A stretch of 64,000 nt of DNA, taken from assembly GCA_013334965.1 (NCBI GenBank), contig JAAXWO010000001.1, forward strand, positions 1-64,000, in the 5' to 3' direction. This DNA comes from Chlorobiaceae bacterium. GTDB taxonomy: Bacteria; Bacteroidota; Chlorobiia; Chlorobiales; Chlorobiaceae. This document shows positions 8,139 to 56,234 of this stretch, piece after piece. Under the pieces are notes generated by a model that searched no databases, was not told the origin of the DNA, and was given only the letters and a program-made list of their open reading frames with translations. A program made the translations under genes and the position numbers. The first letter of the stretch is position 1. Each line of letters starts with the position of its first letter.

Positions 8139-8608
8139 GCCGATGGTTGGTACGCCTGCTGCCGGGGGCGCAAGGCGTTGTCTTGCTTTCCCGGCTGAGC
8201 TGATCGCCTCAGGTCTGGCTCAAAACCATCCACTTCGTTCATGAACCCTCGTCGTTAACTCTCCTTTCTTCTCATTTCCCTGTTTCCGGAATTTCTTCGG
8301 GCGCCCGGTCCTTCGATCTCCTTTATTCCGCTTCCCTCATCCTGTGCCCGCATTCCGGTCTGATCCCGCACATAGAGAGCGCCATTCGTCAGACTCCAGG
8401 CGTGTGATAACGAAAGACGGGGGGGACGATTTGATCTGTCCTTTGCCCCTTGTTGGGTAATTTACGTCCAAAGTGCGTCGGTGTAGACGTTTTGCGGTAT
8501 ACAAATTACCCTATCAACGGGATTTCTGGTTTGCCTCTGTCAATGGATATTGAAGGCGTAAAAACAGCAACCTTCAAATTACATCCCAAGCTGAACAGTG
8601 AGCATACC
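8139..8608 (+). other. 470-bp intergenic region between folD and the permease
   Basis: No coding region is supported here. It holds the hairpin after folD (8161-8195), a pyrimidine-rich stretch (about 8235-8330) and the structured segment 8455-8511 listed separately. An open frame joins the permease from 8450 but has no permease-like sequence and no ribosome-binding site. Confidence 0.5.
8455..8511 (+). promoter_or_regulatory. Structured leader candidate upstream of the permease
   Basis: A perfect 9-bp stem, gggtaattt (8455-8463) / aaattaccc (8503-8511), encloses a second helix, acgtc (8464-8468) / gacgt (8486-8490), with a 12-nt single-stranded segment on the 3' side. It lies about 100 nt before the permease start. 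It does not match SAM, lysine, glycine or B12 riboswitches as I know them. It could be an RNA regulator or a protein operator. Confidence 0.4.
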
Positions 8609-10066
8609 ATGACTAAAACACAACATGACAGAAACGCCGATGCTGTCAATCACTCTTACGGATTGAAGCATGCGGCCCTTTCTCCTCTGGAGACACTCGG
8701 GCAGTCGATTGCAAACATTGCGCCGACTGCGACTCCGACCGTCGTTATTCCTCTCGTTTTCGCCGTTTCGGGCGGAGGTACGTGGCTGGCTTACCTGATT
8801 GCAACCCTCAGCATCCTGCTGGTCTCTTCGAGCATCAACCAGTTCGCAAGGCGTTCCGCCTCGCCGGGTTCATTCTACTCTTACACGGTCGAAGGGCTCG
8901 GCTCTTTCTGGGGCTCCATCACCGGTTGGGCACTCCTGATCGCATACATCGGTTGCGCTTCGGCAGTAACTACCGGTTTTTCCAACTACTCCAACGTGCT
9001 TCTCGAACACCTTGCCGGTTTCAGGATCCCGGCGGCGATCTTCATCGCCCTCAGCGTCCTCGTTGCATGGTACGTCGCCTACAAGGATATCCAGCTTTCC
9101 GCCCGTCTGATGCTGGGCCTGGAGTTCGCATCGGTTTCACTCATCCTTGTGCTCGTAGGAGTGACGATTTTCAATTACGGTTTCAAGCTCGACTGGGAGC
9201 AGCTTCTCCTGAAAAACACCTCGCTTGATGCGCTGAAAGGGGGTCTCGTTCTCGCCATTTTCAGCTTTGCCGGTTTTGAAAGTGCGGCTACCCTTGGCAC
9301 AGAAGCGAAGAATCCGCTGTCAAGCATCCCGAGGGCGATCGTCAGGAGCGCCATCATCGTCGGTTCCATTTTCGTGTTCTCCTCCTACGCCCAGGTCATC
9401 GGCTTCCAGGGTTATACGGAAACGCTCGACAAAAGCTCGGCCCCCCTCAACGTCCTTGCCGACCGCGCCGGCCTTTCCTCCCTCGGCCTTCTGATCGATA
9501 TCGGCGCCGTCGTCAGCTTTTTCGCATGCACCCTGGCGAGCATCAACGCAGCAGCGCGTATCCTGTTCCTGATGAGCCGACACGGTATTTTCCATTCGTT
9601 CGCCGGAAGCGCCCATGAGACGAACTCCACGCCGCACACGGCCGTGACTGTAGCTTCGGTTATCGCGTTTTTCCCGGCTGCGATCCTTTCAGTTCTCGGC
9701 GTAGGCGATTTCGACATCTACGGCTGGGTCGGGACGGTTGCTACCCTCGGATTCATTGTGACCTACATCATCATCTCGGTCGCTGCGCCGATCTACCTGA
9801 AGCAGAGGGGAGAGCTGAAAATCCAGAATCTCGTGGTCTCGGGCCTGTCGGTTTTCGTTCTCGGGCTTGCGATCCTCGGCAACATCTATCCGGTTCCGCC
9901 GGCTCCGTACAACTATCTGCCGTACCTGTTCTTCGTACTGCTTCTCGGCGGAGTGGCCTGGATCGCCGTCATCCACAACTACCATCCCCATGTGGTTGAC
10001 AAGATCCACAGCGAGACCAGCGCAAACAGCTCTCGTTTCTCTGCCGAATCGCGGGCAGGAGCGTAA
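8609..10066 (+). CDS. APC-family amino acid permease
   Basis: A 485-residue integral membrane protein with about 12 predicted hydrophobic segments and the APC-superfamily layout. A conserved N-terminus (LSPLETLGQSIANIAPT) is followed by 'SPGSFYSYTVEGLG' and a sixth-segment motif 'FSFAGFESAATLGTEAKNP' (substrate and ion site region). It likely imports an amino acid or amine. The specificity cannot be read from sequence. The start at 8609 is chosen because homology begins there; no good ribosome-binding site is visible. The stop codon coincides with the first bases of a heptamer satellite. The next gene is an aminotransferase, suggesting uptake coupled to degradation. Confidence 0.82.
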   Translation: MTKTQHDRNADAVNHSYGLKHAALSPLETLGQSIANIAPTATPTVVIPLVFAVSGGGTWLAYLIATLSILLVSSSINQFARRSASPGSFYSYTVEGLGSFWGSITGWALLIAYIGCASAVTTGFSNYSNVLLEHLAGFRIPAAIFIALSVLVAWYVAYKDIQLSARLMLGLEFASVSLILVLVGVTIFNYGFKLDWEQLLLKNTSLDALKGGLVLAIFSFAGFESAATLGTEAKNPLSSIPRAIVRSAIIVGSIFVFSSYAQVIGFQGYTETLDKSSAPLNVLADRAGLSSLGLLIDIGAVVSFFACTLASINAAARILFLMSRHGIFHSFAGSAHETNSTPHTAVTVASVIAFFPAAILSVLGVGDFDIYGWVGTVATLGFIVTYIIISVAAPIYLKQRGELKIQNLVVSGLSVFVLGLAILGNIYPVPPAPYNYLPYLFFVLLLGGVAWIAVIHNYHPHVVDKIHSETSANSSRFSAESRAGA

Positions 10067-10389
10067 TCCGTAACTCGTGACGCGTGACACGAGACGCGAG
10101 ACTCGTAATCCGTAACTCGTGACCCGTGACGCGAGACTCGTAATCCGTAACTCGTGACCCGTGACGCGTGACTCGTAATCCGTAACTCGTGACGGGTGAC
10201 ACGAGACGCGAGACTCGTAATCCGTAACTCGTGACGGGTGACACGAGACGCGAGACTCGTAATCCGTAACTCGTGACGGGTGACACGAGACGCGAGACTC
10301 GTAATCCGTAACTCGTGACGGGTGACACGAGACGCGTGACGCGTAATTCGTAATTCGTGACGCGTGACTCGTAATTCGTAACTCGTAAC
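10064..10389 (+). repeat. Heptanucleotide satellite (7-bp units in 35/42-bp higher-order repeats)
   Basis: About 46 consecutive 7-mers fit T/A-R-A-Y-N-C-G (for example taatccg, taactcg, tgacgcg, tgacacg, agacgcg, agactcg). They are organised into higher-order units starting with 'taatccgtaactcgtgac' at 10064, 10106, 10141, 10176, 10218, 10260 and 10302 (35 or 42 bp), then a diverged 28-bp unit at 10344 and a partial one at 10372. The array starts on the TAA of the permease and ends about 22 bp before the next start codon. It stays open in two reverse frames because most stops are excluded by composition. Confidence 0.95.
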
Positions 10390-10411
10390 AGAAATTTGAA
10401 AAGTAGTAGAC

Positions 10412-11800
10412 ATGAACGCACCATCAGTACTCAATGCAGCGGTGAAGCGTGGTCCGGAAAAGGGTGCGATCGTCCGGCAGGACAACAGGCACCTGATCCA
10501 CCCGCAGCATCATCCGAGCGAACACAGGGATCCCCATGTGTGGGTCTCGGGAGAGGGGGTCAAGCTCACGAACCTGGAAGGGGAACAGTACATCGACGGA
10601 CTTGCCGGAATGTGGAACGTTTATGTCGGCCATGGCCGTCAGGAGCTTGTCGACGCCGCATCCAGGCAACTCGGTACCCTGGCTTTCGCAACGGCTTATG
10701 CGGGATCGACGCATCTGCCTGCCGTCGAACTGGCCGAAACCCTGAAGCGGCTCGTCTACCCGAACATCGAGGCGTTCTATTTCACCCTCGGAGGCTCCGA
10801 TGCGACGGACACTTCGGTAAGGACGGCACGATTTTACTGGGGGTCAAAAGGGCGTCCTGAAAAGTTCAAGATCATCTCGAGGAAGCTCAGCTACCACGGT
10901 TCGACGATCGGTGCCGCAGCGGCTACCGGAGTCGAAGAGTTTTCAGGGGTGTTCGGGCCGAGGGCGAACGGCTTCCTGCAGATCGATTCACCCTATCCCT
11001 ACCGGTTCACCACGGCCAGGACAGATGTATCTCCAGGTGTCGCTGCGGCAGACCTCCTCGAAGAGGCGATCCTCCGTGAGGGCGCGGACACGGTTGCGGC
11101 GTTCATCGCAGAGCCCATCCAGGGGGGCGGCGGCGGGGTTCTCGTGCCTCAGGAGGATTATTTCCAGCGCATCAGGGAGATCTGCGACCGTTACGACGTG
11201 CTTCTGATCAGCGACGAGGTCATCACCGGATTCGGAAGGACCGGCAAGTGGTTCGCGCTCGATCACTGGGGAGTCCAGCCGGACATCCTCCAGTTCGCCA
11301 AGGGGATCACGAGCGGATATTTCCCGCTCGGCGGCATCGGGGTCTCCGGCGCCATCAAGGAGGTCATGGACTCTGTGACCCCCGACCTTCGATGGATGCA
11401 CGGCTGCACCTGCTCTGCCCATCCGGTCGCCTGTGCCGTGGCGATCGCCAACATAAGGATCCTCGAAGAGGAGGGGCTTGTCGAGCGGTCAGCCGCGCTC
11501 GGCCGGAGGCTTCTTGAGAAGTTACAGCCTTTAAGCAGTCACCCGCACGTCGGAGAGATAAGGGTGCTCGGCCTGCTCGCTGGCATCGAGCTCGTGGCCG
11601 ACAAGGCGACCGGGGAGCGATACCCGTCAGGTTCAGGGGTAGGGAAGCGTGTGCGGGATGCGCTCTTTTCCCGCGGCTTGCTCACCCGGGTGCTCGACGA
11701 AACCATCTGCCTCGCTCCGCCGCTGGTGGTCAGCGAGGAGGAGATCGATCGCATCGCGGGGATCGTCATCGAGTCAATTGCCGAAGTGACCGGCAGCTGA
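10412..11800 (+). CDS. Class III (omega) aminotransferase
   Basis: A 462-residue PLP-dependent class III aminotransferase. The family order is visible: GMWNVYVGHG near residue 67, GGSDATDT (phosphate-binding region, normally GSEANET), YHGST, AEPIQGGGGG, LLISDEVITGFGRTG, and the PLP Lys in QFAKGITSGYFPLGG. The type resembles omega-amino acid:pyruvate or polyamine aminotransferases. The actual amine donor is not deducible. Start at 10412, directly after the satellite, with no clear ribosome-binding site. Neighbours (permease upstream; CMD protein and MetY-like enzyme downstream) suggest a small amine or sulfur-amino-acid metabolism cluster. Confidence 0.82.
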   Translation: MNAPSVLNAAVKRGPEKGAIVRQDNRHLIHPQHHPSEHRDPHVWVSGEGVKLTNLEGEQYIDGLAGMWNVYVGHGRQELVDAASRQLGTLAFATAYAGSTHLPAVELAETLKRLVYPNIEAFYFTLGGSDATDTSVRTARFYWGSKGRPEKFKIISRKLSYHGSTIGAAAATGVEEFSGVFGPRANGFLQIDSPYPYRFTTARTDVSPGVAAADLLEEAILREGADTVAAFIAEPIQGGGGGVLVPQEDYFQRIREICDRYDVLLISDEVITGFGRTGKWFALDHWGVQPDILQFAKGITSGYFPLGGIGVSGAIKEVMDSVTPDLRWMHGCTCSAHPVACAVAIANIRILEEEGLVERSAALGRRLLEKLQPLSSHPHVGEIRVLGLLAGIELVADKATGERYPSGSGVGKRVRDALFSRGLLTRVLDETICLAPPLVVSEEEIDRIAGIVIESIAEVTGS

Positions 11801-11845
11801 GGTCAACAAAACAACAGAATCATCATTCATCAGCAAGTAACCGTT

Positions 11846-12424
11846 ATGTCAAGAATATCCCACGTCGTCTATGAAGAGGCGACTCCGGAGATCCGTCAGG
11901 TTTGGGACGATGTCGTCGAAAAACATGGTTCGGTATCGAACATGAAGGCAGTGCTGCTGCACTCCCCTACGGCGCTCAACGCCGTGCTCGAATGGTACAG
12001 CCTGTACGGCAAGGTCAAGCCGGTGCTCGGCCAAAGGTTGACCATCCTGTTCTGCGACGCCATTTCTCGTGAGAACGCCTGCCAGCTCTGCTCTTCCTAC
12101 ATGCGCAAGGGGATCATCGAAGGTGGAGAGGATCCCGAAAACCTGATCCTCTCGGAACGCGATAAAATTATTATCGATTTTGGCCGTCAGCTTGCACACG
12201 ATCCCAACAGGATCACGGACGAGGCGTTCTCAAAACTGCATGACTACCTGACCGAAGCCCAGATCGTCGAACTGACGGCCTTTGGCGCGCTGATGATCGT
12301 CAACAACGTCTTCAACAACGCCCTGCGCATAGATATCGACGACGTCCTGGCAGAGTACCGCGTCAGGCCGGAGATCGCTTTCGCGGGATCGTCACGTTAC
12401 CAGAACGGCAAGGAGCAGTCATGA
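11846..12424 (+). CDS. Carboxymuconolactone decarboxylase/AhpD-like protein
   Basis: A 192-residue all-helical protein of the CMD/AhpD-like superfamily. The core motif is E-N-A-C-Q-L-C-S-S-Y-M. The CxxC redox pair and preceding Glu are kept, but the His usually found four residues after the second Cys is Met here. Such proteins act as thiol peroxidase partners or decarboxylases. The role here is unknown. The gene overlaps the next by ATGA (4 bp), so translational coupling to the MetY-like enzyme is likely. Confidence 0.72.
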   Translation: MSRISHVVYEEATPEIRQVWDDVVEKHGSVSNMKAVLLHSPTALNAVLEWYSLYGKVKPVLGQRLTILFCDAISRENACQLCSSYMRKGIIEGGEDPENLILSERDKIIIDFGRQLAHDPNRITDEAFSKLHDYLTEAQIVELTAFGALMIVNNVFNNALRIDIDDVLAEYRVRPEIAFAGSSRYQNGKEQS

Positions 12425-13731
12425 GCGAGAGAACATACCATTTCGATACCCTGCAGGTGCACGCAGGACAGGTTCCCGATCCGACGACCGGGGCGTGCGC
12501 GGTGCCTATCTACCAGACGACATCGTTCGTTTTCAGGAACTTCGAGCAGGCCAGGGCGATCAGCTCGGTCGAGGAGTTCGGGTTCGACTATACCCGCATT
12601 ACCAACCCGACCAACGAGGTGCTGGAGAACCGGATCGCCATTCTCGAAGGCGGCAGCGGCGCATTGTCCGTTGCGTCAGGATCTGCGGCGACGGCCTGTT
12701 CGCTCCTGAACATCACCCATGCAGGCCATGAGATCGTTGCGGCCAAAACGCTTTACGGCGGCAGCTTCAACCTGTTCCGGAACACCCTGCCCAAACATGG
12801 CGTGAACACGCACTTCGTGGACCCGATCGATCCCGGGAATTTCCGGGCGGCCATCAACGACAACACCAGGGCCCTGTTCATCGAAACCATCGGCAATCCC
12901 GACATCAACATCATCGATTTCGAGAAGGTGGCGCGTATTGCCGAGGAAAACGGCATTCCGCTCATCGTCGACAACACCTTCGGCACGCCCTACCTGTTCA
13001 GGCCGTTCGATTACGGCGCGAACATCATCGTACATTCGGCGACCAAGTATATCGGAGGTCATGGAACCAGTATCGGCGGCCTGATCGTTGACGGAGGCAA
13101 TTTCGACTGGTCCAACGGCAAGTTTCCCGATTTCACGACTCCGGACCCGGCATACAACGGTTTCATCCACTGGGAGCGCTGGGGGAACTACCCCGGCATG
13201 GGCAATATCGCCTACATCATCAAGGTGAGGCTCCAGTACCTGCGCGATCTCGGCGCCTGCATGAGCCCTTTCAACGCCTTCCTGTTCCTGCAGGGGCTTG
13301 AAACCCTTTCGTTCAGGATCTCCCGCCAGGTGGAGAGCGCCCAGCGTATTGCGGAGTTCCTTGAATCGCATCCCGATGTGGAATGGGTCAACTATCCCGG
13401 CCTGAAGAGCAGCCCGTACCATGAGCTTGCACTGAAGTACCTGCCGAAAGGGCCGGGGGCGATCCTTGCCTTCGGTGTGCGCGGTGGGTTCGAGAGGGCC
13501 AAAAAGTTCATCGAAAGCATGAAGGTATTCTCGTTCCTGGCCAACGTCGGCGACTCGAAATCGCTGGTGGTCCACCCTGCGACGGTGACCCATGGCCAGC
13601 TCACTGAGGCCGAGCAGCGACTCGCAGGGGTGAAGCCGGAGCAGATCAGGTTCTCCGTAGGCACGGAAAACATCGAAGACCTGCTTTGGGACATCGAACA
13701 GGCGTTCGAGCGCTCTTCGACGCAAGAGTGA
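12421..13731 (+). CDS. metY: O-acetylhomoserine sulfhydrylase (MetY-like, Cys/Met PLP family)
   Basis: A 436-residue Cys/Met-metabolism PLP enzyme. Conserved features are the N-terminal TLQVHAGQ, YTRITNPTNEVLENRIA, the long MetY-type middle, and the PLP Lys in VHSATKYIGGHGTSIGG. Length and the inserted segment after the Lys (about residues 215-250) fit O-acetylhomoserine sulfhydrylase, which makes homocysteine from O-acetylhomoserine and sulfide, better than cystathionine lyases. Sulfide is the growth electron donor of these bacteria, so direct sulfhydrylation is plausible. A methionine gamma-lyase activity cannot be excluded. Start codon overlaps the upstream gene. Confidence 0.85.
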   Translation: MSERTYHFDTLQVHAGQVPDPTTGACAVPIYQTTSFVFRNFEQARAISSVEEFGFDYTRITNPTNEVLENRIAILEGGSGALSVASGSAATACSLLNITHAGHEIVAAKTLYGGSFNLFRNTLPKHGVNTHFVDPIDPGNFRAAINDNTRALFIETIGNPDINIIDFEKVARIAEENGIPLIVDNTFGTPYLFRPFDYGANIIVHSATKYIGGHGTSIGGLIVDGGNFDWSNGKFPDFTTPDPAYNGFIHWERWGNYPGMGNIAYIIKVRLQYLRDLGACMSPFNAFLFLQGLETLSFRISRQVESAQRIAEFLESHPDVEWVNYPGLKSSPYHELALKYLPKGPGAILAFGVRGGFERAKKFIESMKVFSFLANVGDSKSLVVHPATVTHGQLTEAEQRLAGVKPEQIRFSVGTENIEDLLWDIEQAFERSSTQE

Positions 13732-55963: not shown

Positions 55964-56148
55964 ATTGAATGTCCGTCGGGCTAAAGCCTCTCCTGAATAT
56001 GGGACGGTTACTGCTGGGCAACAGGAAGATTCATGCATTGAATGTCCGTCGGGCTAAAGCCTCTCCTGAATATGGGACGGTTACTGCTGGGCAACAGGAA
56101 GATTCATGAATTGAATGTCCGTCGGATTAAAACCCTCCTGAATATGGG
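55964..56148 (+). repeat. 73-bp tandem repeat, two full copies and a partial third
   Basis: Units begin 'attgaatgtccgtcgg' at 55964, 56037 and 56110. The first two copies are almost identical over all 73 bp (one or two changes near the junction); the third stops after about 39 bp and is diverged (gggctaaagcc becomes ggattaaaacc). The copies are head-to-tail with no spacers, so this is not a CRISPR array. The gap 55895-56234 contains no gene. Confidence 0.92.
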
Positions 56149-56234
56149 AATGATCAGGGACACAAAGGTTGCAAAAAAATAATTCTTCGTCCATCAAGTC
56201 CATAACGTCCATTCTTACATTCCCCCGCCTTTTT

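Follow-up and report, generated by a model that had tools for sequence, protein, structure and literature searches.

How does a satellite of seven-letter units come to fill nearly the whole space between two protein genes, and why does it begin on the stop codon of the first? We addressed this question in a window of 64 kb (the whole stretch of 64,000 nucleotides analysed) from a Chlorobiaceae genome of 2.48 Mb in 20 contigs (G000). The satellite is about 330 bases long (10062-10390, + strand) and consists of 47 consecutive copies of the heptamer CGTRAYN in perfect phase, close to the roughly 46 degenerate 7-mers counted in a sequence-only reading that preceded this work. It lies between an amino-acid permease-like gene (8450-10066, + strand), named from that reading and from the character of its sequence, and an aminotransferase gene (10412-11800, + strand). 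Genes were called by a simple codon-usage script, so that some starts and a few neighbours may be wrong and stops are safer; the start given for the permease-like gene is provisional, and an ATG lies at 8543. The TAA stop of this gene (10064-10066, + strand) forms bases 3-5 of the first heptamer. An array starting exactly at this TAA had been proposed; the TAA does fall within the first unit, but the true start is 2 bp upstream. At the other end, 21 bp of unique spacer (GAAATTTGAAAAGTAGTAGAC, 10391-10411, + strand), conserved in the sister genome, separate the array from the aminotransferase ATG at 10412, where about 22 bp had been estimated.

The most frequent heptamers in the window array are CGTGACG (9 copies), CGTAACT (8) and CGTAATC (7), along with others. 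Self-match is high at lags 7 (0.70), 35 (0.74) and 42 (0.86), whereas the lags next to these give 0.1-0.3. Copies of CGTAATC stand at 10062, 10104, 10139, 10174, 10216, 10258 and 10300, and this spacing defines units of 42, 35, 35, 42, 42 and 42 bp plus a tail. The higher-order part therefore spans 10062-10341 (+ strand), each unit opening with CGTAATC followed by CGTAACT and the last one partly diverged; both the spacing and the self-match bear out the 42- and 35-bp units described previously. The composition had also been thought to exclude most stops, which is true of one strand only. The - strand has no stop triplet, hence the false frames of 151 and 168 amino acids found there, whereas the + strand, which we call the inward strand, has 37, with a stop in most heptamers and thus in all three frames.

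We found no opposite heptamer arm in the spacer, and neither an IVP (23S rRNA intervening sequence protein) gene nor a remnant of one at the window locus. A search of the 64-kb window against Rfam 15 returned no family above gathering score at the array and only 5S rRNA elsewhere. A 73-bp tandem repeat with an inverted repeat inside was also observed in the window (55964-56149; 2.6 copies, 95% match). A resembling unit, TATTGAGTGTCCGGAGGGTT...GAATATGGGACTG, is present in a spacer of the sister genome (L151), and this looks like another dispersed intergenic family.

At the orthologous locus of the sister genome (G018, L061; aminotransferase 93% identical), an array stands at the same stop codon, with other first heptamers and a gap of 100 Ns inside. 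In Chlorobiaceae relatives at 76-80% identity the spacer is short and holds no array, and the array-less loci L065 and L068 carry GCGTAATC and GCGTAATCAACAGG at the gene end. The window array is placed between the stop heptamer and AACAG, and most simply it would have arisen after the split from the 76-80% relatives. Relatives of the aminotransferase region (8450-13731) at 74-76% identity, with the permease end upstream, were also found on contigs labelled Omnitrophica (L070, L071, L073), through either lateral transfer or mis-binning of metagenome-assembled contigs.

Five array sites are common to G000 and G018, some of them also to G019 or G004, and at these sites position is kept while length and sequence are not. 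Heptamer counts at orthologous sites, in G000 and G018 and in some cases a third genome, were 16 vs 9, 17 vs 6 vs 3, 8 vs 21 vs 5, and 32 vs 22. Copy number thus varies between species at these other sites; the window site has the N gap in the sister genome. In the carB spacer, compared in 18 species, the same stop codon is followed by differing heptamers or by none, and in three species TAATGGA arrays keep the phase of the carB-upstream stop that they follow.

These lengths, together with the higher-order units, agree with the local expansion and slippage proposed by the sequence-only reading. In its pure form this explanation needs no mobile element: replication slippage, with a preference for seven nucleotides, would have started from the native stop heptamer CGTAATC. 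The presence of GCGTAATC at the gene end of array-less relatives, the 35/42-bp units, the length differences at orthologous sites and the in-phase TAATGGA arrays all favor it. We nevertheless consider it unlikely, and local expansion an incomplete account, because the array belongs to a dispersed and oriented family tied to gene 3' ends and to S23/IVP genes: the same heptamers occur in both orientations, arrays that do not overlap a stop codon show no preferred phase to it, and slippage leaves their inward pairing and their link to IVP genes unexplained.

Arrays were studied by sequence search, in the stretches around them and in sampled stretches. A query of three heptamers with at most two mismatches gave 182 occurrences in the genome, compared with 1 for the reversed control. 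CGTRAYN arrays occupy about ten further loci of this genome, in both orientations, and the heptamer is found in 8 of 21 members of the genus, where reversed controls were near zero; four exact CGTRAYN units were found in 20 of 394 genomes of the phylum. The sequence-only reading had held that copies at many non-orthologous places, with target-site duplications, would indicate a transposing element and not local expansion. Non-orthologous copies of the heptamer do exist, and no target duplications were identified.

We then considered period-7 arrays of any sequence outside genes, taken from 1.2 Mb sampled in four species, with the tandem-repeat threshold loosened for degenerate arrays and control periods run alongside. 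Eighteen of 31 such arrays start between -21 and +20 bp of a sense stop codon, where 3.3 were expected. Period-9 arrays (3/24, expected 2.0) and other periods (4/32, expected 2.6) stayed close to expectation. CGTRAYN arrays at sense stops numbered 7/16 in G000 (1.2 expected), 7/13 in G018 (1.0) and 27/38 in G019 and G004 together (4.3). The start on a stop codon is therefore a family-wide tendency and not a local accident. The lack of a preferred phase rules out seeding at stop codons as a general rule; such seeding still fits the window locus and the TAATGGA arrays near carB. Most period-7 arrays have stops mainly or only on one strand. Furthermore, an opposite partner within 350 bp lies downstream, so that the two arrays face inward, for 34 of 66 arrays, and upstream, in the outward arrangement, for 2 of 66.

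One inward pair of CGTRAYN arrays in the genome (C7, 118985-119931) encloses a gene for an S23/23S rRNA IVP (PF05635, E=4e-37). This gene (119269-119583, L332) has one in-frame TGA near its end and may be decaying in this genome; the G018 ortholog has an open frame, and its product matches 2gsc, XCC0516 of Xanthomonas campestris (E=9e-28). A single CGTRAYN-armed IVP gene per genome is known, in G000 and G018 only, and the CGTRAYN arms of G019, G004, G005 and G008 have no cognate IVP. We then examined whether heptamer arms are a general feature of IVP genes. We aligned the left flank of each gene to the reverse complement of its right flank and counted scores of at least 16. Inverted arms surround IVP genes at 13 of 15 loci in the genus (10% in random blocks of the same loci), at 19 of 30 loci across Bacteroidota (random 0%, reversed 0%, cross-locus 6%) and at 10 of 15 plasmid loci from Cyanobacteria, Gemmatimonadota and Alphaproteobacteria (7% in random blocks, 8% cross-locus). 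Random-block controls thus ranged from 0 to 10% over the three samples, and at this threshold clear arms were missing from roughly one in three IVP genes outside the genus. IVP genes above the cut-off are present in 220 of 296 sampled Bacteroidota genomes.

The best arm period was 7 at most loci and 8 at some, and it is nearly always the same in both arms of a locus. Period-8 arms were seen at L384, L385, L393, L411, L416, L423 and L425, with the period shared wherever both arms were detected. Within the genus, the heptamer type is the same in both arms of an IVP copy and differs between copies (TAATGGA, TTGATAG, GAATGAT, GAAGGAT, ATTTTGA, CGTGACG). All 13 armed IVP copies of the genus have more stops on the inward strand; the bias is weaker in the phylum, with 13 copies having more and 4 fewer out of 19.

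The hypF-hypC junction, which has an IVP gene with arms in ten species, allowed the gene and its arms to be followed together. G002, close to G016, has neither IVP gene nor arms there (gap of 84 vs 472), and hypF of G016 reads into the array and stops in it. The flanks of the filled and unfilled sites differ, and no target duplication was identified in this pair. Across nine filled sites, IVP identity correlated with arm similarity (rho 0.72) and hypF identity did not (0.01); the partial Mantel correlation between IVP and arms was 0.73 (P=0.0002, nine loci). This co-variation shows that arms and gene are inherited or exchanged together. As support for mobility it is limited to nine loci, and physically linked parts would co-vary even without mobility. 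Period-9 arrays facing inward (TGGACNNNG) were observed at the same junction in G020, G001, G014 and G008 (L366, L369, L372, L378), where other species have the IVP element, and are possibly the ends of another type of element.

A different role for the arms, as operators of the IVP gene or as IVP-binding sites in a host regulatory network, could account for the co-variation of IVP and arm sequences and would make solitary arms sites of such a network. We regard it as very improbable, since the arms flank the gene on both sides in inverted orientation and are present or absent with it as one block, and the neighbors of the loci seen (hypF-hypC, cas6-cas4, nrdB-nrdA, permease-aminotransferase) have no common function.

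We propose instead, with a probability of roughly 0.6, that the window array is an expanded, one-armed and gene-less relative of a compact selfish element made of an IVP gene and heptamer ends. The intact element would measure about 0.45-0.55 kb, with a left arm of tandem heptamers, one S23/IVP (PF05635) gene and an inverted right arm, and would sit in short spacers between genes. With TRA on the inward strand, as in CGTRAYN, three heptamers would close all frames and an upstream gene would be stopped within about 21 bases. Insertion at a gene end would therefore be harmless, and this would explain the position of sense arrays on stop codons, with their random phase. Copies that lack the gene would survive as one arm or a pair of arms; slippage or unequal exchange, in steps of the heptamer and of 35/42 bp, may have enlarged arms to satellites in this lineage. 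The scheme supposes that the IVP recognises the heptamers and that the element moves; neither target-site duplication nor movement was observed at the loci compared.

Descent of the window array from an IVP element is probable under this proposal, but the window locus has no second arm and, like most other array spacers, no remnant of the gene, and what is seen there also agrees with seeding at the native stop heptamer. IVP remnants were not found in the other array spacers. Since most IVP-less arrays have no remnant, independent spread of arms, or local slippage at the window locus, is a possible origin too. With only one arm and no gene inside the unit, we term the window array a relative and not a full member of the heptamer-armed IVP/S23 elements.

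Alternatively, the arrays could be functional 3'-end elements that provide translation stops in three frames and, when paired, hairpins at transcript ends. Their sense placement at stop codons would suit this role, as would the frequency of sites in convergent spacers (24 convergent vs 5 divergent) and the strong folding of short paired arms (z=-8.7 at L184, z=-6.6 at L147). The window array itself folds no better than its shuffles (z=-1.0), and complementarity within pairs of arms does not exceed that between arms of different loci (permutation P 0.54), so that an RNA hairpin was rejected as a general function. Moreover, the same site occurs with or without arrays, with wide differences between species, no Rfam family was found, and closing the frames would take far fewer than 47 copies. 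Such a function is therefore doubtful, rather more so than local slippage.

REP/BIME sequences associated with RAYT are inverted short repeats of palindromic units at gene 3' ends, linked to a Y1 transposase. The arrays resemble them in their inverted pairs and 3'-end placement; furthermore, 18 of 21 genomes of the genus have Y1_Tnp genes, and long RAYT-like frames occur mostly in array-bearing ones. The Y1 link was looked for and not found here: the Y1 genes are bounded by GGGGACGT...ACGTCCCC, a different sequence from the heptamers. Mobilisation of REP-like arrays by Y1/RAYT transposases is thus largely refuted, and we give it hardly any weight. The RAYT-like Y1 genes, of about 320 amino acids (L312-L331 in G000, G019, G005, G004, G007, G006 and G020), have variable bases next to these bounds and constitute, within the genus, a compact mobile family of their own.

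The closest known system to the proposed IVP element is the intervening sequence (IVS) of 23S rRNA genes, which carries an S23p/IVP ORF in Leptospira and Coxiella (PMC4990558). Like the units described here, the IVS is 0.4-0.5 kb long, selfish-looking and sporadic, with one PF05635 ORF and complementary ends. It differs in lying in helices of 23S rRNA, from which it is cut as RNA by RNase III (PMC4990558), whereas the units here lie between protein genes, as does the window array, and have tandem heptamer or octamer ends. On the simplest reading, the S23/IVP-bearing IVS is a known cousin of the heptamer-ended element.

Heptamer repeats have been described on their own. TAACTGA repeats of Beggiatoaceae, Cyanobacteria and Bacteroidetes (MacGregor 2015, PMC4679880) are likewise 7-bp tandem, intergenic and patchy, with stops in one orientation, and are long in some Bacteroidetes. 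Most of those reported precede start codons, one case being inverted, and the window unit, TRAYNCG, is a different heptamer. GGGNATC heptamers of Xanthomonas and Nostoc (Rehm 2015, PMC4692102) share with our arrays the placement at sense stop codons, and in antisense before the next ORF, with the same inward orientation; they are described there as a G-quadruplex motif, mostly of four units and generally without mobile-element association. Neither an IVP gene nor systematic inverted arms were found in the consulted parts of the two accounts (PMC4679880, PMC4692102). Among long simple sequence repeats (LSSR) and cyanobacterial STRR, the heptanucleotide period is the most abundant, with several dispersed arrays per genome (Mrazek 2007 as cited in PMC4679880; Mazel 1990 as cited in PMC4692102). 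The window array, with its tandem 7-bp units beyond chance in an intergenic position, is of this type; LSSR/STRR share period 7 and multiple dispersed arrays with ours and are described in those passages as slippage products with no linked gene (PMC4679880, PMC4692102). The likeness in period to cyanobacterial heptamers pointed out by the sequence-only reading goes further, as the arm-gene-arm layout also occurs on cyanobacterial plasmids. As an analogy only, being a eukaryotic DNA transposon, the Tetris foldback transposon of Drosophila virilis is reported to have supplied building blocks of satellite DNA (PMC4079207).

The CGTRAYN run is thus a member of a repeat family which, in green sulfur bacteria and several other phyla, supplies the mirror-image ends of very small, selfish-looking inserts with the orphan gene for the S23 four-helix-bundle protein. 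The description of the S23/IVP protein reportedly dates from 1993 and its structure, that of a pentamer, from 2006. In the openly searchable literature we found no paper linking IVP and heptamers. Two loose ends meet here, namely the abundance of heptanucleotides among prokaryotic simple repeats and the role of S23/IVP outside rRNA genes. The ends of the IVP element suggest an origin for at least some bacterial seven-letter satellites. More broadly, the odds seem about even that S23/IVP genes across phyla stand at the heart of a minimal class of mobile elements without a recognised transposase, bounded by their own inverted heptamer or octamer arrays, which the IVP pentamer would recognise, and that decay and expansion of these ends yielded many bacterial heptanucleotide satellites, with the IVP genes in cas and other operons as inserts. 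IVP genes have been listed as possibly CRISPR-related, 18 of them in cas loci (PMC3936711). We observed IVP genes with inverted heptamer or octamer arms between cas6 and cas4 in Pseudanabaena and Anabaena and between cas10 and cmr3 in Picosynechococcus (L413, L417, L423). If the proposal is true, IVP genes in cas loci may be inserts and not CRISPR-related.
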